Shown in pieces: positions 1 through 62,175 of a stretch of DNA of 64,000 bases (position 1 is the first letter of the stretch; every line of letters starts with the position of its first letter). The DNA is taken from positions 980,001 to 1,044,000 of the forward strand of contig NZ_OW150024.1 in the NCBI RefSeq assembly GCF_933509905.1, written 5' to 3'. This DNA comes from Trichlorobacter ammonificans. Lineage in GTDB: Bacteria > Desulfobacterota > Desulfuromonadia > Geobacterales > Pseudopelobacteraceae. Under the pieces are notes generated by a model. The model made no database searches, was not told where the DNA came from, and worked only from the letters and a program-made list of their open reading frames with translations. The position numbers and the translations under genes are program-made.

Positions 1-227
1 CCTTCCTTGACGTGCAGGGTCTTGAGCACGCCGCCGTCCACGGCCTGGATTACCTGAATCCGGCTGTTGGCGATGACGGTGCCGGTGCCGCGGGTGGTCT
101 GGTCCACGTGGTAGACCGAGGCCCAGATGATCAGCAGGACCACGGTTGCCACCAGGGTCCAGAGCAGCAGCGAACGACGCATGCCGTGGGAGGATGTCGG
201 TTCGGTATGATCGTGCATGATGGTCAT
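1..227 (-). CDS. HlyD/LapC-family type I secretion adaptor, N-terminal part only
   Basis: Only the first 75 or so codons lie in the window; the gene continues beyond the left edge. Reading leftward from the ATG at 227, the protein has a short polar N-terminus, one hydrophobic membrane segment (about residues 18-38, rich in L, V and I) and then a stretch ending GTGTVIANSRIQVIQ, the usual start of the beta-barrel/lipoyl region of membrane fusion proteins. In this family the protein bridges the inner-membrane ABC exporter and the outer-membrane TolC pore. Its ATG overlaps the stop of the ABC gene by 4 bp (ATGA), so the two are almost certainly translated together. The family call rests on the TM-then-GTG motif and the operon context; the diagnostic C-terminus is not visible. 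Confidence 0.85.
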   Translation of the reverse strand, partial: MTIMHDHTEPTSSHGMRRSLLLWTLVATVVLLIIWASVYHVDQTTRGTGTVIANSRIQVIQAVDGGVLKTLHVKE

Positions 228-2392: not shown

Positions 2393-3699
2393 TGGATCAC
2401 TCCTGCCGGGGAATCGAGCTGTCCCAACTGGGCCGCCAGACGGAGGGACCCCTCCTGGTGGGAACTGCGCGCCTGTTCCAGCGCGAGGCGGGCATCGGAC
2501 AGTTCCCGCTGCGCGTTCAGTACATCCACCCAACTCTTGCGCCCTGCATCGTACTGACGCATGAAGGAGGCGAGGGTCTCTTCGTTGAACGTCACCAGCG
2601 CCTCGTTGTTGCGGATGATGGTGTCCAGGCTCTTCAGATCGATCAGCAGCGACTCCGCCTGCCGCCGGACCTCGGTGCGGGCGGCCTCCACATCCCGCTT
2701 GGCCGATTCCACCCGGCTGTCCGCCGATTTGACCCGTTTCCAGCCGGAAAAGCCGAGGCCCTCCACGGTTCCCTCCAGCACAACGCCGAGCCGGGTTCCC
2801 TGGGGCAGGTTGCGGCTGCCGGCCTGGGTAAAGAGGTCCTGTTCCATCCGGGCGTAGAGGCTGGGCAGCATGTTGGCCTTTGCCAGGTCGGCGGTGGTGC
2901 GGGCCAGCTCAACATCCTGAAGACGCTGTTCCACGACGGCGGAGACCTTTTCCACGTCGTCGACGATTCGGGCGTGGGGCGGCAGCAGCAGCAGTTCGGC
3001 CGGTACCGGCAGGGCGGCGGGAAGCGGCTGCCGGGTGAGGGCCCGCAACTCGTTGTGGGCGCGCTGCAGCGCCGCCTCCAGTTGCAACAGTTGGATTGCT
3101 GCCTGATGCAGACGGGAACTGGCCAGGTTGACGTCGGCGCGGGAGGCGATGCCGCCCTGCTCCCGGGTGGCGATGAGGGTTTTCAGGCGCACATGCTCTT
3201 GGACATTGCGTTCAGCCGCCTTGATCCGCTGGCGTATCCCCTGGATCGTGGCATAGGTGGCTGCCGTGCTTTCCAGGAGTTGCCGCTGCACCGCCAGCAG
3301 GGAGAGCTTGCCGGCCCGTTGCCGGACCGTGGCCTGGTCGATGCTGCCGTCGATCCGTCCCCCCACCCAGAGCGGCTGGCGCAGCACGGCAACCATGGCG
3401 TGGTACTGGTCGCCGGTGGTGCTCGCCGCGGTGGAACCGGCAACCGTGCCGGTGGTGCTGGCCTGCACCGACAGGGTGGGGTAGCGCAGCGACTCGGCCG
3501 ACTCCAGTTCAAAACCCAGGGCGCGCAGTTCGTCCAGCTTGCCGAGTACCGCGGGATGCCGGCTGATGGCGAGGCGCAGCGCCGTAACGGTTCCGTCGTC
3601 CGCTGCCGCCGCCTCCCGGGCCGGGGCGGCGGGACAGAGCAGCAGGCAGAAAAACAGTGCCGGCAACAATCGTCTCCAATGGTGCATGATCGGTTTCAT
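2389..3699 (-). CDS. TolC-family outer-membrane secretion channel (LapE/AggA-like)
   Basis: 436-aa outer-membrane efflux protein expected to form the trimeric exit duct for the adhesin. It has a signal peptide (basic start, then LLPALFFCLLLCPAAPA, cleavage probably near residue 27-32). The rest is long alpha-helical segments with the internal duplication typical of TolC proteins, including LRYPTLSVQAS near the N-terminus and YDAGRKSWVDVLNAQRELSD near the C-terminus, the latter matching the conserved end of TolC-type proteins. It sits 119 bp downstream of the adhesin and overlaps the ABC gene by 4 bp. A second in-frame Met four residues in is an alternative start. Confidence 0.9.
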   Translation of the reverse strand: MKPIMHHWRRLLPALFFCLLLCPAAPAREAAAADDGTVTALRLAISRHPAVLGKLDELRALGFELESAESLRYPTLSVQASTTGTVAGSTAASTTGDQYHAMVAVLRQPLWVGGRIDGSIDQATVRQRAGKLSLLAVQRQLLESTAATYATIQGIRQRIKAAERNVQEHVRLKTLIATREQGGIASRADVNLASSRLHQAAIQLLQLEAALQRAHNELRALTRQPLPAALPVPAELLLLPPHARIVDDVEKVSAVVEQRLQDVELARTTADLAKANMLPSLYARMEQDLFTQAGSRNLPQGTRLGVVLEGTVEGLGFSGWKRVKSADSRVESAKRDVEAARTEVRRQAESLLIDLKSLDTIIRNNEALVTFNEETLASFMRQYDAGRKSWVDVLNAQRELSDARLALEQARSSHQEGSLRLAAQLGQLDSPAGVIQ

Positions 3700-3752
3700 C
3701 GAGGTTCCGTCCAGTTCCGGCAGCGGTTCCGCCGGTTACGATTCCACAACAA

Positions 3753-3784
3753 ACGACAGGACACCCATGGGGGCATCCTGTCGT
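3753..3784 (-). terminator. Hairpin between adhesin and TolC gene, possible attenuating terminator
   Basis: A perfect 9-bp inverted repeat (ACGACAGGA / TCCTGTCGT) encloses a GC-rich core around CCATGG. On the transcribed minus strand it is followed by a short T/G run. It lies in the 119-bp gap between the adhesin stop and the channel start. It could partly terminate transcription so that adhesin and exporter are made in different amounts, or stabilise a processed mRNA end. The inverted repeat is seen directly; the role is inferred. Confidence 0.5.
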
Positions 3785-3818
3785 CCAACGCCGTTGCGGT
3801 CAGCCGGTGGGGCCGCCG

Positions 3819-6800
3819 CTACCCGTGCACATTACTGCTGCTGATAGCCTGGTTTATCAGAAGTTGTACCTGCATGTCACTCTGTGTGTACACATCGTAG
3901 GTGACGGCACCGATGACATGGGTATCGGCGGGGGTGTGCTGCCAGTCGCCGATGTTGCCGATGATGACCGTATCGTCGGCGTCGCCGTCCACCAGCAGTT
4001 GATGCAGGCCGCTGCCGCCGGTGGCAAAGACATCCACCTCCTGATGCAGCAGTTCCGCGGCGGTCAGGCTGAGCTGGTTGGCGCCGCTGCCGGAAAGGTC
4101 GATCTTCTCGATACCGGTGATCTGCGACGAGGTCAGCACGCTCAGGTCCAGATGGATACCGCTGCCGGACAGCTTCAGGGTGTCGATTCCCGCGCCACCG
4201 TCCACGGAGAGGTGGGGGAGGCTGCCGGTCAGGCGGGCGATGTTGTCGGCGTTGACCACGATCAGGTCGTTGCCGCCTCCGGCGCTGATGGTGTCGCCGC
4301 CGCCCAGACCGCTCAGGATGTCATTGCCGTTGCCGCCCATGATGGCGTCGTCACCGGGGCCGGCCGCATCGTCGTTGCGGAGGTAGCTGGTCACCGGCGT
4401 GCTGTCGATATTGACCCCGGAACCGGAAAGGCTGACCTGGAACTGCTCGTCCGGCTCCACCGTGGCGTCGCCCCGTGCCGTCAGGGTCAGCAGGTGGCTG
4501 TTCTGGCCGGCGGCCATCTGGAAGGTGCCGGTCAGGGGGGAGACGAAGTCGTCGGCGTCCACGTCGCCGCTGATGGTGTAGGTGATGGTGACGGCGTCGG
4601 AAATATTGCCGGAGCGGAGCACTTGGTAGGTATAGGCGTTGGTGGTGCCCGCCGCACCTTCCGAACGGTCGGTGTCCAAGGCGATCAGGACGACTCCTTC
4701 GTCGTCGCTGACGATGGTGGCCGCGGCCGAACCGGCATTGGGAGCGATGCTGACGCCGTCGCCGGGGTTTGACAGCAGCAGGGAGAACTGCTCGTCCACT
4801 TCGGTCAGGGTATCCCCTGCCACGGCGACGGTGACGATCTTCGAGGTTTCGCCGGGGGCAAAAGTCAGGGAGCCGCTGGGCAGCTGGTTGCCCACAAAGT
4901 CGGCGGCAGTGGCCCGGTAGCCGCCGCTGCCGGCCACCTGCCAGTCGATGGTGGCGGTGGTATCAACGGCGCCGAGCCGGGTGACTTCGAACGAGTAGAG
5001 CAGTGAGCCGCTGTTCCCCTCCACCTGGCTGGGGTTGAGGGCAGTGACGGAGATCTGGCTGTCGTCGTTGCGGATGGTGCCGGTGGCCGCGGCCTGGATC
5101 AGGTTGGCGCCGCTGGGATTCGTGAGCTGTACCTGGAAGGTCTGGTCCTGGCCGTAGGTATGGTCCCCCGCCACCTGGATCGTGATGATACGTTCGCTCT
5201 CGCCGTCGGCAAAGTGTACCGTGCCGGAGGGAGCGATGCCGCCCACGAAGTCGTCGGTACCGGCCGGATAGCTGCCGGTGCCGTGGACGGCCCAGTTCAC
5301 CGAGGCCTCGCCGGCGGCGAGGCCGACCCGTTCGATCTTGAAGGTGAAATTGGTGACGCCGCTGTTCCCCTCGGCCTTGTCGGCGTCAAGGGCGATGACG
5401 GAGATGCCGGTGTCGTCGTTGGCAATGGTGGTTTCGGCGGTCTGTTCCAGAATGGTGGCTCCGTCGGCATCGAACAGCCTGATGGAGAAGGTTTCGTCAT
5501 ATTCGCCCACGGCGTCGCCCAGCACCGAGACGCTGATCTGCTGGGTGCTCTCGCCGGGCTGGAAGGCCACGGCGCCGGTGGGGAAGACGCCGCCGAAGTC
5601 CCCTGCGTTGGCCGGACGGCTGCCGCTGGCAATCACCTCCCAGAGCGCGCTCACCGCACCGGTAAGGTCGCCGCTGCGGGTCACCGTGAAGGTGAAGACG
5701 GTTTCAACGCCGTCCGCCCCTTCGGCCACGGAAACAGCGTCGGCGGTTATGACCAGCGCCGCGTCGTCGTTGCGGATGGTGCCGGTCACCGCCGGGCCGG
5801 TGACGGTGGAGCCGTCGGCCGGATTGACCAGGGTGACGTCGAAGGTTTCATCGTATTCACCGATGCCGTCGCCCACCACTTCGACGGTGAAGGTTCTGCT
5901 GGTTTCGCCGTCGGCGAACTGCACCGTGCCGCCCACGGCGGCGAAGTCGTCCGCCGAGGCGGGGCGGCTGCCGCTACCGCTGATCGCCCACTCGACGCTG
6001 GTGGCGCCGGTTGCCGTGCCGGCCCGGTCGATACGGAAGGTGTAGAGGGTGCTGCCGCCGGTTCCTTCGGCATGGTCCACGGCCACCGCCGAGAGGGTCA
6101 GGGTGTCGTCGTCGTCGATGATCTGACCGGCCACGTTGTTGACGGTGATGTCGGCATGGGCGCTGGCGTTCGACAGCTGGACGGTGAAGGTTTCGTTGCC
6201 CTCCCAGGCGCCGTCGCCGGCAAGGTTCACGGTGATGGTCTTTTCGGTTTCACCGGCGGCAAAGGTCAGCGTACCGCCCGGCAGCAGGCCGCCGGCAAAG
6301 TCGGCGGCAGTGGCCGTACCGGCCACCACGTTCCAGGATACCGTGGTTTCCCCCGACAGATCGCCGCTGCGGGTGACGGTGAAGGTGGCCTGGCCCGCCG
6401 TGCCGCCGTCTCCTTCCACAACGCTGCCGTTTGCCGTCGCCAGTGCCAGGTCGACGTCGTCGTCGCGGATGAGGCCGGCGGCGGTGGCGGCGGAGCCGTC
6501 AATGGTGCTGCCGGCGCCGGGGTTGCAGAGTTCGACGGTAAAGGCCTCGGCCCCTTCCAGGTCACGGTCGCCGGCCACCAGCACGCTGAGGATGGCGGTA
6601 TCCTGGCCGTCGGCAAAGGTCACGGTGCCGCTGGTGGCGGCAAAGTCGTCGGCGCCGGTGTCGGTGTGCAGGATGCGCCAGCCCACGGTGGAGCTGCCGC
6701 TCAGGCTGCCGCTGCGGGTCACGGTGAAGGTGAAGGCGGTGGTGCCGCCGGTTCCCTCGGCCCTGTCGGCCGCCAGCGCCGTAATGGCGAGCACGTCGTC

Positions 6801-9800
6801 GTCGTTGACGATGACCGCGTCCGCCGTCCGGGCGCCATAGCTGTGGGTCAGGCTGTCCACCGGCGCGGTCAGGGTCACCCGGAATCCTTCGTCGGCTTCA
6901 CGCAGGCTGTCGCCGGCCACTGAAACGGTGAAGTCCTGGCTGGCCTGGCCCTGGGCAAACACCAGGGTGCCGGAGGGGAAGAAACCGCCGGTGAAGTCGG
7001 CGGCCGCTGCCGCATGGTCGCCGCTGCCGGCAACGCTCCAGTCCAGCGTGGTGGCGGAAAGGCTGCCGGTGCGGGTCACCCGGAACACATAGGCGGTGGG
7101 ACCGTCCCCTTCGCCGTCAGGAAGAGAGACGGCGGCAATGGTCCACTCCACGTCGTCGCTGATAATGGTACCGGTGGCGCTGCCCACCACCACGGCGGCG
7201 CCGGTGGAGGGATTGCCGAGATTGACGGTAAAGGTCTCATCCCCCTCCACCACGGTGTCCCCCGCCACCTGCACGGTGATGGTCTGGCTGTTCACGCCGC
7301 TGGCAAAGGTCAAGGTGCCGGAGGGAAGCAGGCCCCCCGCCAGATCGTCGGCATCGGCGCTGCCGGCCGCCACGGCCCAGTCCACGGTGGCCTCAAGGGC
7401 CGTGTTGCCGGTGCGGGTGACGGTAAAGGTGTAGTTGACCATGCCGTCGGCCCCTTCCGACTTGACGGCGTCGGTGGCGCTGATGCGCAGGGATGCCTCG
7501 TCGTCGGTGATGACGGCGTCGGCGGTGGTGTGCAGGAAGATCACGCCGTCCGGTCCCGCCAGGGTCAGGCGGAAGCTCTCGTCGGACTCGCCCAGGTAGT
7601 CCCCTTTCACCGGCACCCTGATGGTCTTGCTGGTGTCGTTGGCATCAAAGGTGATGGTGCCGCCGGTGCTGTCGAAGTCGCCGGCCGACGTGGGGTCGGC
7701 GCCGATGCCGGCCACGCTCCAGGTCAGGGTCTGGGAACCGGTGAGGTTGCCGCTGCGGGTCACCACGAAATCGAAATAGGTGGTGTCCCCCGGATTTCCC
7801 TCCACCTGCGTGGCCGGGGCCGTGACGTCGAAAACGATGTCGTCGGCCTGGATGGTGCCGGTGGCGGTGGCCTGGGTAATGGTCATGCCGCTGCTGGGGT
7901 TGGACAGGGTAACCGTGAACCCTTCGTCCGGCTCGCCCGCCAGGTCGCCAGCCACGTCGATGGTGAGGGTGGTGCTGGCCTGGCCGGCGGCAAGGGTCAC
8001 CGTGCCGGTGATGCCGGCAAAGTCGTCGTCATCCGCGGCGTGGGCCCCGGAGCCGGTGATGCTGTAGGTCACGGTTTCCGCCTCGCCCAGGTAGCCGGTG
8101 CGGGTGATGGTGAAGGTGAAGGGGGTGGTGCCGCTGTTCCCTTCGTTCTTCACCGCATCGACGGCTGCGATGGCGATGGTGGAGTCGTCGTTGAGTATGG
8201 TGGCGGCGGCGGTTGCGGTCAGGATCGAACCGCCGCTGGCGTTGGCAAGGGTGATGGTGACCGCCTCGTCCCCTTCCACCACTTCATCGCCCACCACCTG
8301 GATGGTGATGGTCTTTTCGTACTCGCCGTCGGCAAAGGTCACCGTTCCCGAGGGGAGACCGCCGTTGCTGCCCAGGGCGTCGGCGGTGGCGAAGTCGGCG
8401 GCCACGGCGCCGGCCGAGGAGAGCTTCCAGTCCACCGAAGCGGTGCCGTCGGCGTTGCCGGTGCGGGTCACCGTGAAGGTGAGGGCGGTGGTGCCGCTGT
8501 GCCCTTCCTGGATGGTGGCGTGGTCGGCGGCGATATGCAGCGCGGCGTCATCGTTTTCGATGGTGCCGCTGGCCGTTGCCTGGCTGATGGTGTCGCCGGC
8601 GGTGCCGGCCCCCAGGGCGATGGTGACGGTGTAGGTCTCGTCGGTTTCCGGCGTGGCGTCGTTGGTGGGGGTGATGGTGATGGTCTTGCTCATCTCGCCC
8701 GGCGCAAAGGTGACGGAACCGGAGGGGAGCGAACCGCCGAAGTCGGCGGCAGTGGCCGATCCGCCCCCTACGGACCAGGTGATGGTCTGGTTCTGGACCG
8801 TGTCGTGGGTACGGGTGATGGTGAAGGTCTGGCTGCCGCTTTCCGGGCTGCTGCCCACCAGCGGGGCGATGGAGAAGCTGCTGTCGTCGTTGCGGATGGT
8901 TCCGGTGGCGCTGATGTCGATGGCCTCATCGACCCCCACCAGGTTGGAGAGCTGGATGGTGAAGGTTTCATCGGCTTCCGGCGTGGTATCGCCCACCACC
9001 GTCACCGAGATGGTCTTGCTGGTCTCGCCGGCGCTGAAACTGACCGTACCGGAGGTGGCGCCGCTGACGTCGCCTGCGGCGGTGGTGCCGTGGTAGAGGG
9101 TCCAGGTCATCGACGAGGTGCCGGTGGTGTCCCCCGAACGGGTGATGGTGAAGGTCATGGTCTGGTTGGCATCGCTTTCCGCCAGGGTACTGTCGGCGAT
9201 GCTGATGCCGGTATCGTCGGTGACGATGGTCAGGGTGGCGCTGGCCACATTCTGGGTATTGGTAATCGTCGGCGACGAGCTGGTCAGCACGTCCTCGTAG
9301 AGCACCACCCGGAAGGTTTCGCTGTTCTCGGCGATCAGGTCGCCCTTGACCAGCACGCTGAAGGTCTTGGTGAGCTCGCCGCTGGCAAAGCTGACTGTGC
9401 CGCTGGGCAGGCCGTTGTTGGTGCCCTGCGTGTCGGTACTGGTGAAATCGCTGGTACTGGCCGGATTCCCCCCCACCGCTTCCACCCGCCACTTGAGGGT
9501 GGCCGCGCCGGTATAGCCGGTGCCGCCGCGGGTAACGTCGAAGGAGAAGGTCTGGTTGGCCCCCTGGTCGGTCTCCACCAGGCTGGTGCTGGCCGGGGTC
9601 AGGGTGTAGGTGGTGTCGTCGTCGTAGATGGTGCCGCGTACATCCAGCGTGGTGCTCGGGCTGGTGTAGCTGCCGCTATAGTCGGCGTAGTAGCTCTGGA
9701 AACGGACGCTGGAGCCGGCGCTGTCGCCGGGGGCGGAAAGACGCAGGGTAAAGGTTTCGTTTGCTTCCACCGTGGTGTCGTCGGCGAGCAGATCGGCCAG

Positions 9801-12800
9801 GGAGATGCTGTAAGTGTACTCGCCGTAGGTACCGGCCTGCCCGGCCAGAGTGAAGCTGCCGCTCATGGTGGTGAAATCGCCGTTTGTCGTGGTGCCGTTA
9901 ACCAGGGTGTAGTTGACGACGATGTCGTTGTCCAGCCGTCCGTAGCGATTGACCATGAAGGTCAGCGGATTCCCCTCGTAGGCGCTGGTCTGCACATTGG
10001 TATAGTAGCCGTTGGTGTCGCCGCTGTAGGTGTCCCAGCCACCGACCCAGAGGCGGATGTCGTCGTTCTTCAGGGTGGTGGTGACGCTGGCCAGGGCGTT
10101 GTTGATGTCCGCCGGGCCGTAGGCGTCGGTATAGAGCGGCCCGTGTTCGGCGTCGTCCGGGTCCAGCACGGTGAAGGTCAGGGTCTTGTCGTTCTCCACG
10201 TAGCGGTCGCCGGTGAAGGTGACCACCACGTTTTTGGTGGTTTCGCCGGCAGCAAAGGTGACCAGGCCGTAGGTCTGGTTGGAGTAGGGTTCCTGCACGC
10301 TGCTGGCGTCACCGCCAAAGGTCAGGATTTCCGCCGAGCCATTGGCACTGGCCCAGTTGATGTACGTGCCGTCGATCCGCCAGGCCACGGTGGTGGGGTA
10401 GTTCAGGCTGCCGTCCCGGTCCCCCTGGTCGCTGCGGGTAATGGTGAAGGTGACGCTGTTGCCGGTGGCCGAATCGTTGGCGCCGGTCCCCTCCCAGGTG
10501 GTGGCGCTGCTGACCGAAACGCTGATCAGCGGGTCGGATTCGTTGTCGTAGATCCGGGCGGTGTCGGTGTAGCCGGTGGAGGGGGTCTCCAGGTCGTGGT
10601 TGGGTTCGCCGGCATTGACGTTGACGGGGTTGGAAAGGACGATGGGCAGTTCCTCCCGCCAAGTTTCGGTCCAGGCGTCGTCGATGGTGACCACGGTGAT
10701 GGTTTTGGTGGTCTCGCCGTCCGCGAAGGTCAGGGTACCGGACCAGGTGCGGGTTCCCGCGTTGTAGCTGGCGGTGCCGCTTGAGGGGGTGACACTGTCG
10801 ATGTCCGACGGGTCCAGCTTGTACCAGGTGCCGGTGGCGTTGTTGCTCTCATTGGTGGCTTCGGAACCGGGCAGGGCCAGGGACCAGTCCACGGTGTCGG
10901 TACCCCGGCTGTCGCCGCTGCGGGTGACGGTATAGGTGAGGGTTCCGCCCTCGACCACATCGTTGACGGAGGCGTCGAAGCGGGTGTCGTCGTTGGCGAT
11001 GATGCCGATATTGTATTGCGGATAACTCGCGGTATCGTAGATGTTGATCGAAGAACCTGCGCTGGGGTTCTCGAGATAGATGCTGAAGTACTCGTCGTAT
11101 TCTCCGATATCATCCACCTTGGTGTAGAACTTGATGTAGGCCCATTGCTGGCCGTCTTCAAAGGTAACGGTACCGGAGGGGAGGGCAGCCGCGGTGGTTA
11201 TGGACGTGATGTCGCCATTACCGTCGCGGGTGATAGTGAGGAAGTCATCGGCGCTGACTGCCGGAGAGTTGTAGGTGCCGATGCGCCAGCCCACGCTGGC
11301 CGTGCCCGCCGTGGCAACCTGGCGCTGCACGGCGAAGATATGCTCCACGTAGCCGTACTCCACACCGCCGATGGTGACGATGGTGGCGCCGGCGCCGCCA
11401 TCCGCCGGGGTATCGCCTTCGGCCCGGCTCTGCAGGCCGTTTCCGGGAGACAGGCTCTGTACGCTGGTGCTGGCCACCTCACGGTCGCTCAGGTAGAACT
11501 CGGCCTCGTCGCGTTCGATGGAGGAGAACAGGTAGTTGGTGTTGTTGGCGACACCGTTGGTGGCGCTGCTGATGGCTTGGTTATCGTAGAAGTTGCGGCC
11601 GCCATAGTAACTACGGCCGAGCAGGGTTCCGGTGCTCTTCGAAGGATCGTCATAGATGACGTTGATCTCGTCGTAGCCGCTGGTGCCGGTGACGCTGACC
11701 GCGAACCACTCATCGTTTTCCGCCGTGTTGTCGCCGAGGGCTGTCACGGTGAACTGCTTGCTGGTCTCACCGGCGGCGAAGCTGCCGCTTCCGGAGGTGA
11801 AACCGCCCTGGAAATCGGCTGCATCGGCAACCTGGTACTCGGAGCGGCTCTGGGTGTAGTCGGTCATGTAGGCAGAGGAGCCGTTCGAGGGGTCGGTGTT
11901 GCCGGTGGACCAGTTAAATCCAGTGGTGCCGCCGGTATAGCCGCTACGGGTTACGGTATAGGTGAAAACCGTATTGCTCCCGGCGACCGATTCGGCCTTG
12001 CTGTAGTCGTCGACGGAGAGGGTGAGACGGGTATCGTCGTCGAGAATGGTGCTGTTATAACTGGTGGTGCTGCCCAGGGAACTGCCGGCGTTGGGGTTGG
12101 CAAGCTGGATGGAGAAGGTTTCATCCCCTTCCACGCTGCCCACGCCGGTGTCGCCGTAGACGTAGACCGTGATGGTCTGGGTGGCGACTCCGTTGGCGAA
12201 GGTCAGGGTACCGCCGGGGGTGAGGTTGGCGCTTACGCCGTTGGTGAAGTCACTGCTGGTGGTGGTGCCGTGCACCACGCTCCAGTCCACCGTGCTGACC
12301 TGATTCAAGTTACCGGTGCGGGTCACCGTGTAGGTCATGGCCTTGCCGGTGCCGTGGCCGCCGTCCCCTTCGAGAAGGTTGGCCGTGCCGGCGGTGATGT
12401 TGAACTGGGCATCATCGTTGCGGACAAAGCCGTCGGCAGTTGCCGTGGTGATCTGCGTGCCGGCGGAGGCGTTGGAGAGGGCCAGGCGCAGCACTTCGTC
12501 CGCTTCCAGGGCGCTGTCGCCGGCAACCCGCAGCGTGACGGTCTTGCTGGTTTCCCCCCCCGCGAAACTCACCGTGCCGTAGGGGATGCCGTTGCCGTCC
12601 TTGAACACACCGGCCGGTTGGCTTGAGAAAAAGTCGCTGCCGTTGACGGCGTTGGCGACGCCGGTGTCCACGGTCCAGGAAACGGTGCTGGTCTGCGCCG
12701 TGTTGCCGGTGCGGGTGACGGTGAAGGTGTAATCGACGTAGCTGCTGTTGCCTTCGTTCTTGTCGGCCAGCAGGGTGGCGACGGAAACGCTGGCGTCGTC

Positions 12801-15800
12801 GTTGGTCAGTACCGTGGAGGCGCTGGCCGTGCCGATGACGCTGTTGGCCGGTGCCCCGGAAAGAGTGACGGTCATGGTTTCGTCCGATTCCACGACGGAA
12901 TCGCCCTTGACGTTGACCACGATGGTGGCGCTTACCTGGCCGTCGGCGAAACTGACCGTGCCGCTGGCCGCCTGGCCGTCGGCCAGGTCGCCGGCCGTGG
13001 TGAAGCCGTTGGTACCGGTGATGGTCCAAGTGAGGTCGCGGGCCCCCACCAGGGAACCGGTGCGGGTCACCGTGTAGGTGATCGCGCTGTCGCTGTTGCC
13101 TTCGGCACGGCTGGTGGTCAGGGTGCTGATGCTGAAGCTGTCGTCGTCGGTCAGGATGGTGGTGCTCTTGTCGCCGTCCGTTCCCTCGATGGTGCCACCG
13201 TTGGGATCGGCCAGGATCACCCGCAGGGTTTCGTCGTTTTCCAGGGTCAGGTCACCGGCCACGTTGATGGTGATGGTCGTGCTGGTCTGTCCCGCCGTAA
13301 AGGTAACGGTACCGCTGGGCAGACCGCTGTTGGTGCCCAGGCTGTCCTGATTGCCGGTAAAATCAGCAGTGGTCAGGCCGCTGGCAGGGGCCACGGACCA
13401 CTTCACACTGCCGGCGCCGCTGGTGTCGCCGCTCCGGGTGACCGTAAAGGTAACCGCGGTGCTGCCGCTGGCCCCCTCATGGAAGGCGGCCGGGGCGCTG
13501 AGCACGAAGTTAGTGTCGTCGTTGGTGACGACGGTGTTGGCGGTGGCGGTGCCGATGATGCCGGCCGAGGGATCGGTCAGGGTGAGGGTGAAGGTTTCGT
13601 CTCCTTCGGCCAGAGTGTCGGCGATCAGATCGAAAGTGACGGTTTTACTTGTTTCATTGGCAGCGAAGGTCAGGGTGCCGCTGGGCAGAACACCGCCCTG
13701 GATGTCGGCCGCAGTGACGCCGGCCCCGCCGGTGACGGCGTAATTGATGGTGGCGCTGCCGCTCAGGTCGCCGCTGCGGGTGACGGTATAGGCGATCTGG
13801 GTAGTGCCGGCGGAACCTTCAGCCACGGTGGCGTTGGCGGCGCTGACACTGAAACTCTGGTCGTCGTTGCGGATGATGCCGGTGGCGTTGGCATCCTGGA
13901 TCAGTTGCGGCGTGTTGTCGGTGAGCCGGGCGTTGCTAATGGTGACGGTGAACTCTTCGTTTTGCTCCACCACGGTGTCGCCGCTGACCGTGAAGCTGAT
14001 CTCCTTGCTGGCCTCATTGGCGGCAAAGGAGAGGGTGCCGGAGGGGAGGAGGCCGCCGAAGTCGGCTGCGTCGGCCGGTGAGGCGCCGCTGCCGCCGACT
14101 GCCCAGTCAACCGTGGCGGCGTCGCTGATGTCACCGGCCCGGGTGACCCGGAAGGTGTAGGTCACGGTGCCGCCCTGCCCCTCGGCATGGTCGGCGGAGA
14201 GGGCGGTGATGGAGAAGCCGGTGTCGTCGTTGGTGATGACGGCGCCGGCACTGCTGCCGGTCAGTTCGGTGTTGTCACCGGCCCCCTGCAGCAGGATGGT
14301 GAAGGATTCGTCCTGCTCAACCTGATTGTCGGTGGCCACCAGCACGATGATCTGCGCGGTGCTTTCACCCGCGGCAAAGGTAACGGTGCCGCTGGGCAGG
14401 CCGTCGTTGCTGCCCAGTGCGTCCTGACCGCCGATAAAGTCGTTGGCTGCCGCCGAACCGGCGCCGCCGGGAAGCTGCAGCACCCACTCGACGGTGGTTG
14501 CCGCGGAGGTGTCGCCGCTGCGGGTGACGGTGAAGGTGAAGGGGGTGGAGGCACCGTCGTCGGTATTCTGCTCGGCCTGAGTGGCGGTATCCGCCGTGAT
14601 CACCAGGGCGGCATCGTCGTTGACCACCTCCGTCGCGGCGGTGGCGCTGGTGAGGTAGGTCCGGTCGTGGGCCGGATTGCCCGCCGGGTTGCTCAGGGTG
14701 ACGGTGAGGGTTTCAGTGCTCTCGTTGACGTTGTCGCCGAGCAGGGGCAGGTTGATGGTCTTGACGGTTTCATGGGCCGCGAAGCTGAGGGTGCCGGAGA
14801 AGGGGGTGGAGGCGGCGAAGTCGTCGGCGGTCATGCCGCTGGCGATCCAGTCGATGACCACCGGCGATGCCAGGTCGCCGCTGCGGGTGACGGTGAAGGT
14901 CAGCACGCGGCTCTCCCCCGCTGCTCCTTCAAGCACCGAGGCGTTGCCGGCGGTGATGGCGATGCCGATATCGTCGGCCACCACGCTGCCGGCGGCGGTG
15001 GCGGTCATGATGTCGGCGTTGCCGTCGGCGCCGGAAAGGGTGACGGTGAACCCCTCGGTGGACTCGATGGCGGTATCGCCGCTGGTCTGGATTTCAATGG
15101 TTTTGCTGGTTTCTCCCGGGCCGAAGGTGATGGTGCCGGAGGGGAGGGCGCCGCCGAAGAAGTCGGCGGCATCCACCGGGTGGTCGCCGGAACCGCTCAC
15201 CGCCCAGTTGACCGTGGTGGTGCCGGTGACCACCCCGCTGCGGGTGACGGTGAAGACGTGGGTCTGCGTGCCGCTCTCCCCTTCCGTGAGGGTCGTGGTG
15301 GTGGCACTTACGACCAGGCCGGTGTCGTCGTTGCGGATCACGCCGTCGGCACTGGCGGTGCCCAGGGTGGTGCCGGCCGAAGGATTGGTAAGCTGCACGC
15401 GGAATCCTTCGTCCGCTTCCTGGTAATAATCGCCGCTGACCGTGACCGTGATGGTCTTGCTGGTTTCATTGGCGGCAAAGGTGAGGCTGCCGGCGGGGAG
15501 CGTGCCGCCGAAGTCGGCGGCGTTGGCCGGGTGGGCCCCCTGGCCGGCGACGCTCCAGTCCACCGTGGTTTCCCGGTCCAGGAAACCGGTACGGGTAACG
15601 GTGAAGGTGAACTCCCGGCTGTCGCCGTTGGCCGCTTCGGCGAGATCGGCGCTGGTGGCGGCAATGGAGAGGATGTCGTCGTCGTTCAGGATGACCACGT
15701 CGGCAGTGCCGCTGGCAATGGTGGTGCCGGCGCCGGGGTTGACCAGGGTGATGGTGAAGGTTTCATCGCTTTCCAGGCTGTGGTCCCCTGCCACGGACAG

Positions 15801-18800
15801 GGTGACGGTTTTGCTGGTTTCCCCGGCGTTGAAGGTGATCAGGCCCCCCGGCAGCAGTCCGCCGGCAAAGTCTGCCCCGTCGGCTGCCGCGCCGCTGCCG
15901 GCGGGGCTGACAACGTACTCCACCGTGTCCGTGCCGTTGATGTCGCCGGTGCGGGTGACCGTAAAGGTGACCGTGGTGCTGCCGCTGTGCCCTTCCACCA
16001 CTGGATCGATGCTCTGCAGGGTAAAGGCGGCGTCATCGTTGCGGATTGCGCCGCTGACCTCGCCGACCAGTACCTGGGTGCCTTCGGAGGGGTTGCTCAG
16101 GCGGATGGTGAATCCCTTGTCCGGTTCGATCAGGTTGTCCACCGTGAGCGGCAGATTGACCACCAGGCTGGAAACGCCGCGGGTAAAGGTTAAAACCCCT
16201 GAGGGGATGCTGCCCGAAGCGAAGTCTGCGGCGACGACGCCGTTGCCGTCGGTGGGGACCAGCTCCCAGTGCACGGTGGAGACACCGGTGGTGTCGCCGC
16301 TGCGCTGCACGGTGAAGGTCAGTTGTGAGGTGCCGCCGGGGTTGCCTTCCGGGCGGTCCAGGTTGGTGGCGACAAGGGTGAGGCCGGAGTCGTCGTTGAG
16401 GATCATGCCCGCGGCGCGGTCCTGCTCGAGCACGACACCGGCCTGGCCGGTGGTCAGGACGATTTCGTACCCTTCGTGGGGTTCGTAGACCGTGTCGGCA
16501 CGGGGGGTGATGGTCAGCAGCTTCGTGGTTTCGCCGGCGGCGAAGGTGATGCTTCCCGAAGGAAGACTGCCGCCAAAGTCGTCGGCATTGACCTGGTTTG
16601 CGCCGGAACCCACCAGGTGCCAGTCAACGGTAACTTCGCTGTCCAGGTGGGCGGAGCGGGTCAGGGTAAAGGTATGACTGCGGGTGGTGCTGCCGGAGCC
16701 TTCCTTGACCACGGCGTCGGTGGCCGTGATGCTGACGGCGGCGTCGTCCGGCACGATGGTGACGGTGGCGGTGCCGGTATGGATAAGGGAGTTGGCGTCC
16801 TGGGCCTGCAGGGTGAAGGAGTAGCTTTCATACCCCTCCAGCAGGCTGTCGCCGGCAAGGGGCACCGAGATGATCTTCGAGGTTTCCCCTGCGGCGAAGG
16901 TGATGATGCCGGTCAGCGGGAATCCGTTTTCGAAGTCGTCATCTTCGGCGGGGTTCTCGCCGTACCCGGCGATGACGTAGCCGATGGCGCCGGCCTGTGA
17001 GACGTTGCCGGTACGGGTGACCAGAAACTGCTGCACGCCGCCGGTGCCGTTTCCTTCAAGCGTGGAGGCGGTGACCGCCGTGACGTCGTACTGGGTTTCG
17101 TCGGCGCGGATGATCCCCTGGATTTCGCCGTTGATGATGACGGTGCCGGCCGGGGCGTTGGCCAGTACGACACTGAAGGCTTCATCCTGCTCCAGGGTGG
17201 CGTCCCCTGCCACATAGATGGTGACGGTTTTCGTGGTTTCGTTGGCGCCGAAGCTGATGGAGCCGCTGGGGCGTCCGCCGTTGTCGCCGAGGGCGTCGGG
17301 GGAGGCGGTGAAGTCCAGGGAATCCGGCACGTGGTTGCCGCGGGGGATCAACCGGTAGTCGATGGTCATGGGCTGATTGAGGCTTTCGGAACGGACCACC
17401 TGGAAGGTGATCGCCGTCTGGGTGGCGGCGCCCCCCTCGACGACGTCGGTCGTACCGGCGAAGATGCTGAAGCCCAGGTCGTCGTTGACCACGGTGGTGG
17501 TGGCTGTATCGGTACCCAGGCCGAGGTTGGCGCCCGGGTTGGCCAGCCGTACCGTCAGGGCTTCGTCCGGTTCGATGGTGCGGTCGCCGGTGACGGTGAC
17601 GGTGATGGTGGTGCTGGCCTGTCCCACCGCAAAGGTGGCCGTTCCCGACGGCAGTGTGCCGCCGAAATCGGCGGCATCCACGGTGCCGCCCGCCACCTCC
17701 CACTGAACGCTGGTTGCGCTGAGGGTGTTGGTGCGGGTCAGGGTGAAGGTGACGACCCGGGTTTCACCGTTGTGCCCTTCCTGAATCGTGGGGGTCGTGG
17801 CACTGATCGAGACCAGGGCATCGTCATTGACAATGGTGACGGCTGCCGTGTTCTGGGCTCCCAGAACCAGGTCGTCGCCGGGGTTGGCGAGGGTGATCAG
17901 CAGGGTTTCATCGGCTTCGATGGTGCTGTCTCCGGCCAGTTCGACGGTGAAGGTGGCGCTGCTCTGGCCTTCGGCAAAGCTGACACTGCCGGACAGGGTT
18001 TGACTCGGGGCCAGGTCGGCGGCGTCGACGCCGCTGATGCTCCAGTCGACGCTGCTGGCATTGGCTGTTTTGGTCCGGGTGACGGTGTAGGTGAGCAGCG
18101 TCGTGGTGCCCGGCGCTCCCTCGACGACGGTTGCCTCGCCCGCGCTGACGGTGACGGCGGCGTCATCGTTCAGCACCGCCAGGGTGACGGTCTTTTCGGC
18201 GGCATTGCCGGCACCGTCGGTGGCCACCACGGTGAAGGTGTAGTTCGGCGTGGTTTCGTAATCGGGATTATCGAGCAGCGTTACCTTCCCGGTCTGGGGA
18301 TCGATGTGCAGGCCGGGGTCGCTGCCCGGCTTCAGGCTCCAGGTGATCCCGTCGCTGACGTCGCCGGAATCGTCGGCAACGGCGGTGTAGATCACCAGGC
18401 CGGCGCCGCTGTTCTCGGCCAGGGGAGCGGCCGTGTCGCCGGAGGTGACGACCGGGGTGCTTTCGTCCTGGTTGACGACGGTGATGGTAACGTCCTTGCC
18501 AGTGCTGACGCCGTCGGTGTCGGTGGCGATGACGGTGATGGCGTAGCTGTCCCGGTCCTCGTAGTCGGCGGGGGCGATCAGGCGGACTTCACCGGTGTCG
18601 GGGTCGATGGTGAACAGGGCGGCGTCGGGACCGTCCAGGCTGTAGCGGAGACGGTCGCCGGCATCTTCGTCGCTGGCGCCCACGGTGTAGACGACGGTGT
18701 TGGCGGGAGCGTTTTCGGCGATGCTGCCGCTGGCGGCCGAGTCGATGGTCGGTGCGTCGTTGACGTCGGTAACGTGGATGGTGACGGTGCTGCTGCCGCT

Positions 18801-21800
18801 GGCCCCGTCGGCGTCGGTGGCCACGACGATGATGAGGTAGGTGTCCTTGCTTTCGTAGTTGGCGGAATTTTTGAGGGTGACCGCGCCGGTGACGGCGTCG
18901 ATGTCGAACAGGTCGGCATCGGGACCGCCGAGGCTGTAGGTGACCACATCCCCTTCGTTCGGGTCGCTGGCGGTGGCGGTGTAGACGACGGTGGCGGTTG
19001 CAGCGTTTTCCGGTACTACGCTGCGGTCGGCGGAGGTGATCACCGGCGGCTCGTTGTCGCTGGTGCCCACCATGGTGATCGTCACACTGGTGCGGGTTCC
19101 GTCCACGGCGGTCACGACAAAGGTGTCAACGTAGAGCTGCCCTTCTTCGAATTCGTCGTGGGCGGAATCGGCGACGTAGGTCCAGTGTCCCTGCGCGTTG
19201 ATGCTGAAAAGGCCGTAGGCCCCCGCAACCGCGGTCTGCGACACGAATTCGGCCGGGTTGTCGAGATCGCTGATGGTCAGGGTGCCGCTGGTGGAGATGG
19301 CCTCCGGGCTGTCTTCCTCGGTGAGCTGGACGGTGGCCGTGGAAACAGTCGCGGCATCGTTGGTGCCGTGAATCGTCACGGTGACCCGGCTGACGGAGTT
19401 GTTGGCGCCGGCGACCTGGAAGGTGTCGGACACCGTGTCCCCTGCGTTCAACCGGTTGTGGGCGCCGTTGGCGACAAAGCTCCAGGAGCCGGCGGCGTTC
19501 ACCGAAAAGGTTCCCCAGGTGCCGACGGTGGCGGTCTGGGGTGTGAAGGAGCTGCCGCCGCTGAGAAGGCCCCGGGTGGTGAGCGGGGCGTCGGTTTCGG
19601 ACAGTTCGACAACGATGTTGGCCGCCCCCTGCTGGTCCGCCGTGATGATCGAGGTGGTGTAGGGCCGGGAGGCGGTGATGATGTCGCCGTTCCCGTCGAC
19701 GATCCGGACGACGAACTGCTGGGTGCCGGTCAGGTCATGGGGTACCTGGAAGTTCCAGGTGGTGCCGGTCGCGGTGGCCGTCCCCAGCAGGTCCGTGCCG
19801 TCGACACCGCCGTAGATCATGATCTGCTGACCGGCGGTCAGGCCCTGGCCGAGTGTGCCGCTCAGGTGGGGCCGCGGATCGTCGGTGCTCGTACCCGGTG
19901 CGATGGTGCCGGTGACCGGACCGACGTCGTCCGTCAGCGTGCCGATGGTGGCTGTTGGTGTAATGACCGGCTCGGTGATTGCGAGGTCGATGGTTCCCGT
20001 AAAGCTCTGGGTTTCCGTTGCGGCGGTGATCCGGAGCGTCCCCCGGATGAGGTCTCCGGCTGCCGGGCCGGGGTCGAGGGCCCTGACCGCCAGCATGCCG
20101 ATGTCGCTCAGCGCAATGGAATAGGTGCCGTCGCTGCCGGGGGTAAGCAGCGTCTGGCCGGTGGGAGTCGTTTTATACAACGACACACCGTCGGGCATCC
20201 CCGCAATGGTCACCATGCCGGTACTGTTGCCCGTGCCGAGGGCGGGCATCTGGATGTTGAGCGGTATGAAGCCGCCGAAATAGCCGTTGGCCGGGTTGGT
20301 TTCAAAGCCCCGCAGGTCGCCCAGGTCGTTGATGGCGTCGGCTACGAACTGGGTGGCGTCCCGCACCTGGTCGAACGCGGTCGCGAAGGAAATGTCGCCA
20401 CCCCGTTCCGCAGCGGCCTGGTTGCCGATCCGGTACAGGGTCGGCAACAGGGCGTCACTGGCGACCCGCATGCTTTCGGTAACGGCGTCGGACAACGGGT
20501 TGGCCAGGGTGCTGGTGGCGATGGTGCTGTTGATCGTGCCGATGGTGGCGGCCAGCGAGGCGATGTCCGCTGCACTGCTGGCACGCAGGTCGTTGGTGAC
20601 CCCATCCTGGTTCGAACCGTTCATGGCCCCCAGCAACACCACCTGCAGGTCGCCGGCGCTGCTCAGGCTGACCGTGCTGCTGCTGCGGTTGCTCTGCACG
20701 ATCAGGTTGGCCAGTGCCTCGACGGCGTAGTCGCTGCCCACGGTGGTGGGGGTGGCGGACGCACCGTTGATGAGCGAGGAAACTGCGCCGAGGATGACGT
20801 TGATTTCCCGGTTGGCGGAGAGAACGCCGCGCTCCTGCGCAGTGGCGGTTCCCGAGAGGGCGGCTGCCACCGGGTCGAAGGAGAGCAGGTTTTCCGGCGT
20901 CGTCATGCCCAGGTTGAGCACGGAGTTGACTACCGCCGAGGCGTTACGGAGCGCGGTGGCGTCCACGGCCGTGCCGGGGTTCATGCTCTCGGCCACCGAG
21001 GCGATCAGGGTGGAGAGGGGGGAGAGGACGACATCAACCCCCAGCGTCCGGGTGTCGATGAGCCCGGGGTACACCTTGTACACCACGCCGGAGTTGGTGG
21101 AGCCGGAGGTGGTGTCCACCCCGCCGAACGCCAGAATCGGAATCCCTGCTTCCGGAGTGAACGAGAACTTGAAATGTCCCTGTGCATCGCTGGTGGTGAC
21201 CGTTTCACCCTGGTCGTACACCCCGTTGCGGTTGCTGTCGATGAAGACCGTGGCGCCGGCGATGTAGTCGTCCTGCACGAGGCCGGTAAAGTAGAGGATC
21301 GGCGTGGAGGTGGCGGTGCGGTTGTTCGCGGCGTCGCTGATCGTGCTGTACACGGTGTAGTAACCCGGCCCCTCGGCGAAGACTCCGGCAGGCAGGGTCA
21401 CGCTCAACGAACCGTTGGTGATGTCGATTGACGACAGCGGCCGTGTCAGGGTGTGCTGGACGTTGCTTTGCGTCGTAACCACTACCGTGATGGTGTCGGA
21501 GGCATTGGCGTTGCCCGGCAGGGTGATCTGCAGGGTGAGGCCGTCACTGACATCGCCGTCGCTGGTTTGTATCCCGAGCTGGCCGGGAGCGATGGTATCA
21601 ACGATAAAGTTGATGGCCGGGCTGGCGTTGCTTGAGTTGCCGGCGGCATCGGTGATGCGGTAGGTGATCGAATGGCTGCCCTCGCTCAGGCGGTTTGAGG
21701 GGGTAAGGCTCCAGAAACCGTTCTGGTCGACCTTTGTTTCGCCGAGCAGCACGTCGCCGTCGTAAATACGCACGGTGGCGCCGGCTTCCGCGGTGCCGCT

Positions 21801-60599: not shown

Positions 60600-61415
60600 A
60601 TGCAGAACGAAGAACGTGGATTTGATACCCTGCTGGCCATCATGCGTCGCTTGCGCGGCCCCGGCGGCTGTCCCTGGGATGCGGAGCAGACCCATGACAG
60701 TCTGAAACGCTACCTGCTTGAGGAAGCGTACGAGGTGATCGAGGCCATCGATACCGGGAACGACGAACTGCTCAAGGAGGAACTGGGAGACCTGCTGCTG
60801 CAGCCGGTTTTTCATACCGTCATTGCCGAGGAAGAGGGGCGCTTCACCATGGCCGAAGTTGTCGCCGCGCTTTGCGACAAGCTGGTGCGTCGTCATCCCC
60901 ATGTCTTCGGCGACCTGGAGATTGCCGATAGCGAGGCCCAGGTGGCCAACTGGGAAAAGATCAAAAAGGAGGAGAAAGGGGAGGAACGGCGCTCGGCCAT
61001 TGCCGGGGTGCCCGCCCATCTGCCGGCCCTGCTCAAGGCCCAGAAGATCACCGAGAAGGCTGCCCGTGTCGGTTTCGACTGGGAGCATGTGGATCAGGTC
61101 AAGGCCAAGGTTATGGAAGAACTGCACGAGTTCGAGGAAGCCCTGGCCGAAAGAAACCAGCAACGGATGACCGATGAACTGGGAGACCTCTTGTTCGCCA
61201 TTGTCAATCTGGGCCGTTTTCTGGCCGTTGATACGGAGGAGGCACTGCGCAGGACCATTGCCCGGTTTCAGGGGAGGTTCGAGTATGTCGAGGATTGTTT
61301 GCATGGGCAGGGACGCCATATGCAGGATGCCACCCTGGCGCAAATGGACCTGCTTTGGAATGAGGCAAAAGAGCGGGAGCGGCAGGGCGATCGGGGTAAA
61401 TCTGACGAATTGTAA
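60600..61415 (+). CDS. mazG: Nucleoside triphosphate pyrophosphohydrolase MazG
   Basis: 271-aa all-alpha NTP pyrophosphatase with two MazG repeats. First: LRGPGGCPWDAEQTHDSL, EEAYEVIEAID and EELGDLL. Second: EELHEFEEALAERN and DELGDLLFA with metal-binding Glu/Asp. It hydrolyses NTPs or dNTPs to monophosphates and clears damaged nucleotides. The start has TGAGGAG upstream. Confidence 0.95.
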   Translation: MQNEERGFDTLLAIMRRLRGPGGCPWDAEQTHDSLKRYLLEEAYEVIEAIDTGNDELLKEELGDLLLQPVFHTVIAEEEGRFTMAEVVAALCDKLVRRHPHVFGDLEIADSEAQVANWEKIKKEEKGEERRSAIAGVPAHLPALLKAQKITEKAARVGFDWEHVDQVKAKVMEELHEFEEALAERNQQRMTDELGDLLFAIVNLGRFLAVDTEEALRRTIARFQGRFEYVEDCLHGQGRHMQDATLAQMDLLWNEAKERERQGDRGKSDEL

Positions 61416-61653
61416 CAAAGGATTTCAGCCAGTTGAATCCTTATCCACACTTTTTGTGGATAACCTGTGGATAATAGTGTGAATGAATACGGGAAGTCGT
61501 ATGTAGACAAGCACTTTCTTCTAATTGCCTAAAAAACAGGCACTGCTTTTGTTAGTTATATCAGTATGTTATGCAAAATGGCGGTTTTTTGCGGTGTCGC
61601 GGGCGGCAAGACTGTCAAGTAAAAAAAGTAGCAAAATGAAAATATTTTTGCTG
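61416..61653. other. AT-rich convergent intergenic region between mazG and ogt
   Basis: 238 bp, far richer in A and T than the genes around it. Besides the DnaA boxes it has a small dyad GCCT-N7-AGGC near 61529-61541 and runs such as AAAAAAAGTAG and AAAATATTTTT. The TTATCCACA/TGTGGATAA pair can also form a hairpin, but no T tract follows. I see no credible gene in it; the 63-codon open frame starting near 61525 lacks a ribosome site and runs into ogt. Confidence 0.65.
61441..61486. promoter_or_regulatory. Cluster of DnaA boxes (three perfect, one near-perfect)
   Basis: Perfect TTATCCACA at 61441-61449 (plus), and its complement TGTGGATAA at 61455-61463 and 61466-61474 (both minus-oriented). 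A one-mismatch copy TGTGAATGA lies at 61478-61486. Boxes 2-4 share orientation and start 11 and 12 bp apart, close to helical phasing. An AT-rich tract follows to about 61690, with TTATGCAAA (one mismatch) near 61570. This is a DnaA-binding region: oriC, or a DnaA-titration or DARS-like site. The boxes are seen; the role is open. Confidence 0.6.
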
Positions 61654-62175
61654 TTAATAACTGTCAAAAATCCGGCAGTTTTTCTCCCCCCTGAATTCAA
61701 CCCCTTCCATGGTTAATAGGAGTTTTTTGCAAGAAATCCCCCCGGCGCCGCTGTAGCCGGTGAGAGCCCCCGTAGACGAGACCACCCGATGGCAGGGGAT
61801 GATCACCGGCAGCCGGTTGGCCGCCATGACACCGCCCGCCGCCCGTGCCGCCTTGGGGTGGCCGGCCAGTTCCGCCAGCCGGCGGTAGCTGATCACCGTG
61901 CCGTAGGGGATACGGCAGGCCACGGCCAGTACCCGTTCCTGAAACGGGGTGAGGCTGCCGATGTCCAGAGGCAGGTCGAACCGCCGCAGTTGGCCGGCAA
62001 AGTAACGCTGCAGCTGATCCGCCGCCTGCGCCGCGTGCGCGGGGGCGGGGCCCGATGCACGCGTTCCGCCGGGAGCTTCTTCCGTCGGCAGGAACACTCG
62101 ACAGATTCCCTTGTCGCTGACTTCCACCCAGCCCGTTCCCACGGCAGTCGTATAGGGTACGATCCATGTTTCCAT
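61654..62175 (-). CDS. ogt: Methylated-DNA-protein-cysteine methyltransferase
   Basis: 173-aa suicide repair protein that moves alkyl groups from O6-alkylguanine to its own Cys. The active site PCHRVV follows LPVII. The DNA-binding HTH is in GTVISYRRLAELAGHPKAARAAGG, after LTPFQERVLAVACRIPYG. The C-terminus extends about 15 residues past GISCKKLLLTMEG. It lies 37 bp after murJ in the same direction. Confidence 0.93.
   Translation of the reverse strand: METWIVPYTTAVGTGWVEVSDKGICRVFLPTEEAPGGTRASGPAPAHAAQAADQLQRYFAGQLRRFDLPLDIGSLTPFQERVLAVACRIPYGTVISYRRLAELAGHPKAARAAGGVMAANRLPVIIPCHRVVSSTGALTGYSGAGGISCKKLLLTMEGVEFRGEKNCRIFDSY

Follow-up and report, generated by a model that had tools for sequence, protein, structure and literature searches.

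The cluster of DnaA boxes between mazG and ogt in Trichlorobacter ammonificans raises the question of what a group of binding sites for the initiator of replication is doing in this short gap. A preliminary description of the window (the whole 64,000-nucleotide stretch of DNA that was analysed, positions 980001–1044000 of the contig) had reported three exact boxes and one near-match within 46 bp, three of them on one strand at 11–12 bp spacing, at a point on which the two genes converge, and had proposed either an origin of replication (oriC) or a DnaA-control site of the datA or DARS type. The arrangement is as described: the boxes occupy 61441–61486 with same-strand spacings of 11 and 12 bp, the near-match agrees at 7 of 9 positions, and the flanking genes converge. 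The features of the locus are as follows.

60600–61415, plus strand: mazG, a neighbour presumed to play no part in the mechanism
61422–61573, plus strand: the whole conserved element, about 150 bp, as matched by profile R1 (model positions 3–155, E 2.3e-23, a score obtained by construction, this sequence having itself been among the 45 rows used for training)
61441–61449, plus strand: DnaA box I, TTATCCACA, 9/9
61455–61463, minus strand: DnaA box II, 9/9, head-to-head with box I, starts 14 bp apart, 5-bp spacer
61466–61474, minus strand: DnaA box III, 9/9 (exact TTATCCACA), 11 bp after box II
61478–61486, minus strand: DnaA box IV, TGTGAATGA, 7/9, 12 bp after box III
61526–61542, no strand: TGC-n12-CA site, 17 bp, A/T-rich centre, Fis-like, at +84/+85 from box I in all 76 measurable gaps
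61559–61571, plus strand: putative IHF site, consensus TATCAGTATGTTA, 9/9 specified positions, +118 from box I, recognised from sequence only
61652–61660, minus strand: weak DnaA box V, 7/9, past the IHF site and overlapping the 3' end of ogt
61654–62175, minus strand: ogt, O6-methylguanine-DNA methyltransferase, convergent neighbour

The view that this set of boxes lies beyond chance holds for their clustering and not for their count. The window contains 10 boxes with at most one mismatch against 5.45 expected, and 10 were reached in 3 of 100 shuffles (shuffle controls keep base composition only, not dinucleotides); it is thus the clustering that is unusual, not the count. In the genome as a whole (3,058,983 bp, one contig), TTATCCACA occurs exactly at eight sites, three of which lie at 61441–61474, and a genome-wide search identified 61441–61486 as the sole cluster of exact boxes. 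The exact head-to-head pair at 14 bp, with its 5-bp spacer, likewise occurs once in the genome, at the element. No second trio of boxes matching at 8/9 or better within 200 bp was found in the 862,983 bp scanned (28% of the genome, window included).

Clustered DnaA boxes adjoining AT-rich DNA with an IHF-like site are features that the element has in common with a bacterial oriC, and the locus might on these grounds be oriC or a second replication origin. In addition, the same three-box string lies about 0.2 kb from a dnaA-like frame (identified by eye) in a genome of another phylum (L223), where it is likely to belong to oriC. The GC skew of the T. ammonificans genome, sampled in 43 stretches, does not bear out an origin at the element. 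Skew is positive in 18 of the 19 stretches starting between 60 kb and 1.60 Mb, negative in 20 of the 21 starting between 1.62 and 3.04 Mb, and mixed in the three sampled stretches nearest dnaA, which places the minimum within some tens of kb of dnaA (557–1894 of the contig) and the maximum near 1.62 Mb. Skew is positive to either side of the element (1.041 Mb), with no turn among the sampled stretches, and the element lies ~1.04 Mb from dnaA, proximity to which is common to origins though not universal. In two relatives with complete genomes (G069 and G089, 20 stretches each), skew changes from negative to positive at dnaA; the element lies near a positive-to-negative, terminus-like change in G069 (in which two of the 20 stretches are 80% N) and in flat skew in G089, where the overall pattern is weak. 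The dnaA loci of relatives bear boxes of their own, with head-to-head pairs matching at 16 or more of 18 positions at spacing 11 in 4 of 13 loci and at spacing 14 in 0 of 13, and the genes flanking the element converge. Unlike a bacterial oriC, the element is also a small, isolated cluster, further boxes at −150 to +250 averaging 0.38 per gap in 74 gaps of the order. Identity of the element with oriC is rejected on the sampled skew, and an origin of either kind at this position appears very unlikely.

Two other observations concern the base composition and boxes of this genome. The first 3 kb of the contig (L018 1–3000), comprising dnaA and its upstream region, contain no DnaA box at 8/9 or better, which leaves oriC either to rely on less well matched boxes or to be located elsewhere close to the minimum of skew. 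Positions 1–20000 of the window have a strong GC skew (+0.11) and carry their long frames (at least 200 aa) on the minus strand, unlike the remaining window.

The box geometry is conserved across the order Geobacterales. Of the 97 genomes of the order (this one included), 93 yielded a mazG gene, and downstream DNA was obtained for all 93. In 79 of these 93 mazG-downstream gaps, boxes I and II are head-to-head and 14 bp apart, matching at 15–18 of 18 positions, against a best score of 14 of 18 in 465 mononucleotide shuffles. When spacings of 9–24 bp were tested, pairs matching at 16 or more of 18 positions were found at spacing 14 in 74 of the 93 gaps and at no other spacing. Box III (at least 6/9) is present at +25 in all 79 gaps having the pair, and box IV (at least 6/9) at +37 in 66 of them. 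Among the 14 gaps lacking the pair, five have a strong match to profile R1 slightly further off (G041, G049, G051, G077, G083) and one genome has a strong match on another contig (G072); the remaining eight have weaker matches, of which that in G086 (E 1.4e-13) is far from mazG. The matches in family f2 (four genomes, genus g10) are weak and among the weakest, with a best E of 8.6e-8. Profile R1 was trained on Geobacterales only (45 rows), and its matches in 94 of the 97 genomes at E ≤ 0.01 and in 87 at E ≤ 1e-12 (hand count) are not an independent test, as 45 of these genomes supplied the training rows. T. ammonificans has one R1 match. Several genomes have two or more, and many of the second matches read share the layout; the number of matches in a genome does not equal its copy number, since some matches read a single inverted repeat from its other strand (e.g., in G069). 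The distance between element and dnaA ranges from 0.17 to 0.49 of the genome in the nine genomes measured and is 0.34 in T. ammonificans, where the element is intergenic and lies between the predicted oriC and terminus regions, with box V overlapping the end of ogt.

Two further sequences occupy fixed positions relative to box I. The IHF consensus is matched at 8/9 or better at +118 to +120 in 64 of 76 measurable gaps, and at 9/9 in 28, against a background mean of 0.37 of 74 gaps over all plus-strand positions, peak included. The TGC-n12-CA sequence is present at +84 or +85 in 76/76 measurable gaps, as compared with 0.5% of shuffles. In the 14-bp distance between its G and C and in its A/T-rich centre, this sequence resembles the Fis consensus given in a passage of PMC10380432. 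A covarying palindrome was also considered for it and was rejected, only the outer TG/CA being symmetric throughout and the inner pairs scoring no higher than shuffles, or lower. Beyond the IHF-like site, a sequence of the box V type (at least 7/9) is found at +195 to +224 in 65 of 74 gaps of the order, mostly at +212 to +216 (shuffles 3.9%). Box V is outside the R1 model and would have served as an independent test of other elements; in these it is not enriched (5/40, two of the five inside the order, against a shuffle rate of 4.5%).

The exact three-box string (spacings 14 and 11) gave 11 matches in genome contigs, five in Geobacterales/Desulfuromonadales and six in other phyla. Six genomes of other phyla chosen for this string were used as decoys, and all six match R1 at E ≤ 0.01 (best 3.9e-8); for this reason the 190 of 395 genomes in the phylum sample that match at the same level are not used as an element count, and the threshold outside the order was set at E ≤ 1e-9, below the six decoys. 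At this threshold, 47 of 387 genomes outside the order match (hand count; some matches are partial). The TGC-n12-CA sequence is absent from 6/6 decoys, four of which sit among 4–19 further boxes, and one decoy (L224) carries an IHF-like sequence (8/9) at +116. Of 43 fetched elements, 41 were examined, mostly better matches (28 from beyond the order, the remaining 13 being additional matches within it). TGC-n12-CA is found at +83 to +86 in 40/41, boxes I/II at 13/18 or better in 37/41 and the IHF consensus in 20/41, counts which describe the matches and provide no test, since the features are in the R1 model. Box III is better placed at 12 than at 11 bp clearly in seven of the 41 (L274, L275, L278, L283–L286) and marginally in two (L279, L289). 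Over half of the element is overlapped by an open frame of at least 100 aa in 9/41, so intergenic placement is not general to all elements.

Several individual matches are recorded here as observations in their own right. In the uncultured Eubacteriaceae genome noted above (L223 2361–2394), the exact three-box string near the dnaA-like frame (by eye) is accompanied by 19 further boxes, indicating that this geometry does not by itself single out DARS. In Persephonella (L220 4927–4960) the string lies in an array with seven further boxes, possibly oriC. Two Bacteroidales genomes (L227 and L230) have the string with zero and one further boxes nearby, and the gene just downstream in both reads like what we take to be mraZ. 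In further matches in relatives (L284, L285, L286, L297, L298), a motif near TGTCAATA-TTAT replaces the IHF site; one of these (L286, from genome G005) has an hda-like gene with a DnaA domain ~1.5 kb away.

Beside ruvB, the T. ammonificans genome encodes an Hda homologue, which scores 146.8 bits to TIGR03420, below the cut-off of 194.8, and contains the Pfam domains Bac_DnaA and Hda_lid; from its presence ADP-DnaA would be expected to form and to need recharging. IHF-family genes are present, with scores (112.9 and 99.6) that fall short of their curated cut-offs (120.25 and 119.95, respectively), and IHF binding to DNA is reported for Geobacter sulfurreducens in part of PMC7962754. No stand-alone Fis was detected in the genome, all 23 HTH_8 matches (E ≤ 0.001) lying in frames of at least 454 aa; the Fis-like TGC-n12-CA site is thus found in a genome without a stand-alone Fis among its HTH_8 matches. 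A second copy of the element beside hda was considered and rejected, the two stretches L010 and L324 giving nothing above 2.5 bits. Head-to-head pairs at 14/18 or better were absent from the 18 loci around DnaA-domain matches other than dnaA itself.

The element is probably a chromosomal DnaA-control site located away from the origin, specifically a DARS-like DnaA-reactivation site, a reading to which we assign a probability of roughly 0.6. The datA/DARS-like role proposed in the preliminary description is supported and can be sharpened, as the order-wide box geometry is common to DARS1 and DARS2. The head-to-head arrangement of boxes I and II is characteristic of DARS according to sections of PMC10380432 and PMC5742627 and functionally essential according to the former, and portions of PMC10380432, PMC5742627 and PMC4245941 describe box III as stimulatory and IHF and Fis as activators of DARS2, with the IHF and Fis sites of DARS2 being described in PMC4245941. 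The DARS-type geometry is absent from the E. coli datA gap and, at 16/18 or better, from the 13 relatives' dnaA loci. In the proposed mechanism, ADP-DnaA, expected after initiation given the Hda homologue, would bind boxes I and II face to face, and box III (and box IV) would add DnaA and stabilise the complex. An IHF-type protein would bend the DNA at about +119, and some further protein would occupy the TGC-n12-CA site. Head-to-head contact would expel ADP, and the apo-DnaA released would rebind ATP, yielding recharged ATP-DnaA ready for initiation at an oriC near dnaA and thereby, presumably, influencing the timing of initiation. Counting against the DARS reading are the II–III spacing, the dnaA distance, the lack of a stand-alone Fis among the HTH_8 matches, the modest R1 match to DARS1 with DARS2 ranking fourth, the occurrence of the three-box string in larger arrays of other phyla (once beside dnaA), the sub-threshold scores of the IHF-family genes, the lack of TGC-n12-CA at the element position in the E. 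coli gaps, and box V, which past the IHF site could fit datA too.

The presence of boxes on both sides of the IHF-like site within the order makes a datA-like or titration site the main rival. Such a site would bind ATP-DnaA with IHF and either stimulate ATP hydrolysis or hold DnaA from oriC. Boxes I–IV precede the IHF-like site and box V follows it, and the E. coli datA stretch likewise shows boxes on either side of an IHF site, as a portion of PMC10380432 describes; three exact boxes would titrate DnaA, and R1 run with filters off has weak partial matches in the datA stretch, the best at 6.7 bits (E 0.11). However, E. coli datA lacks a 14-bp head-to-head pair at 14/18 or better and gives no R1 match up to E = 10 with default filters, box V is unenriched in the other elements, and titration alone leaves the constant 5-bp spacer and the fixed TGC-n12-CA unexplained. 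A datA-like or titration role is regarded as possible but rather unlikely.

The location between convergent genes, and the inverted repeat formed by boxes I and II, would also suit a local control or transcript-end signal of mazG/ogt that happens to hold DnaA boxes. This explanation is highly improbable: no T run follows the I/II repeat on either strand (by eye), the element is ~1 kb downstream of mazG in G067, G070, G074 and G079, and similar elements outside the order are in other gene contexts where looked at (L237–L239). A T-tailed terminator was rejected on the same absence of a run of T, and a structured RNA was rejected because no Rfam family matches 61300–61800 at E values up to 1. A DnaA-IHF nucleoprotein site with a non-initiation role, such as chromosome organisation, is favoured by the variable dnaA distance and by the constant 17-bp site, which is otherwise unexplained; it leaves the box geometry shared with DARS unaccounted for and is considered improbable.

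DARS sites are established in E. coli. Part of PMC5742627 describes them as conserved in beta- and gamma-proteobacteria close to E. coli, and part of PMC10380432 refers to similar sequences in "many proteobacterial species". Literature on DARS in Geobacter was absent among the matches listed, most subscription journals being outside coverage, and a search for DnaA-reactivating sequences with Desulfovibrio returned, among the matches listed and judging by title, E. coli work only. A compact, conserved relative of DARS in this order, and perhaps in further classes of the phylum, in company with an Hda homologue would imply greater age and generality for the DnaA recharge cycle, and hints that DARS-like timing of chromosome replication may have an earlier origin and a wider distribution than is recognised. 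The element also offers a strict sequence definition, directly testable in a harmless and genetically tractable bacterium, with box I followed by box II at +14, box III at +25, TGC-n12-CA at +85 and IHF at +119. It is tentatively suggested that the window copy is one of a phylum-wide DnaA-reactivation family that ranges from a single copy to several in each genome, shares common ancestry with E. coli DARS and has its constant TGC-n12-CA served by a non-Fis protein; DNA-mediated recharging of DnaA would in that case be older than the divergence from Gammaproteobacteria.

The gaps of E. coli K-12 that we take to hold DARS1 (bioD-uvrB), DARS2 (rppH-mutH) and datA (glyVXY-queG) were located with the aid of the map positions and neighbours in PMC5742627. 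The DARS1 gap contains TTATCCACT-5-TGTGGATAA-3-TGTGTATTA and the DARS2 gap TTATTCACC-5-TGTGGATAG-3-TGTGAAGAA, both with I/II at 14 and II/III at 12 (III at +26); the DARS2 triple TTATTCACC/TGTGGATAG/TGTGAAGAA was taken as the core, and that gap also contains another, less well matched triple of identical spacing. R1 with filters off, applied to 20 kb containing DARS1, DARS2 and datA, ranked DARS1 first (17.2 bits) and DARS2 second (10.9 bits). With default filters, the search was extended to 420 kb of E. coli K-12, among them eight background stretches of 50 kb, one containing oriC; DARS1 again ranked first with a modest E of 0.0014 (model positions 14–155), followed by two unrelated matches (E 0.051 and 0.07) and by DARS2 in fourth place (E 0.14), the second DARS2-gap triple giving E 1.1; the oriC stretch, like that of datA, had no match up to E = 10. 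The ranking of DARS1 supports kinship and is not proof of it, since much of the score comes from the boxes and both DARS gaps are without TGC-n12-CA at the element position.

In its details the element resembles each of the E. coli sites in part. It has the three boxes, with I opposite II and III, by which a section of PMC5742627 defines DARS. With DARS1 it shares the head-to-head I/II pair at 14 bp, a box III oriented as box II, and an intergenic, mid-replichore location, but box III follows box II by 12 bp in DARS1 and by 11 bp in the element, and the DARS1 gap has neither TGC-n12-CA nor an IHF-like site at 8/9 or better. DARS2 likewise has the core geometry and, in addition, two IHF-like sequences to the same side as in the element, one at +109 and one at +93 in the opposite strand, both matching at 8/9, as compared with the candidate IHF site at +118 in the element, which is recognised by consensus at a fixed position. 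DARS2 differs in its II–III spacing of 12, in being served by a known Fis protein, and in having TGC-n12-CA only at +203, +225 and +474 rather than at +84/+85. E. coli datA resembles the element in combining DnaA boxes with an IHF site, and differs in the absence of the head-to-head pair; boxes on both sides of that site occur within the order through the weak box V, which is not enriched in the other elements. Distances from oriC are conserved in E. coli, according to part of PMC4585315, in contrast to the variable dnaA distance of the element. Given this variability, a II–III spacing of 11 rather than 12 and no stand-alone Fis among the HTH_8 matches, the element is best read as a variant of DARS rather than as a member, and in T. 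ammonificans it lies at 0.34 of the genome from dnaA, as against 0.33 and 0.21 from oriC for DARS1 and DARS2 of E. coli.
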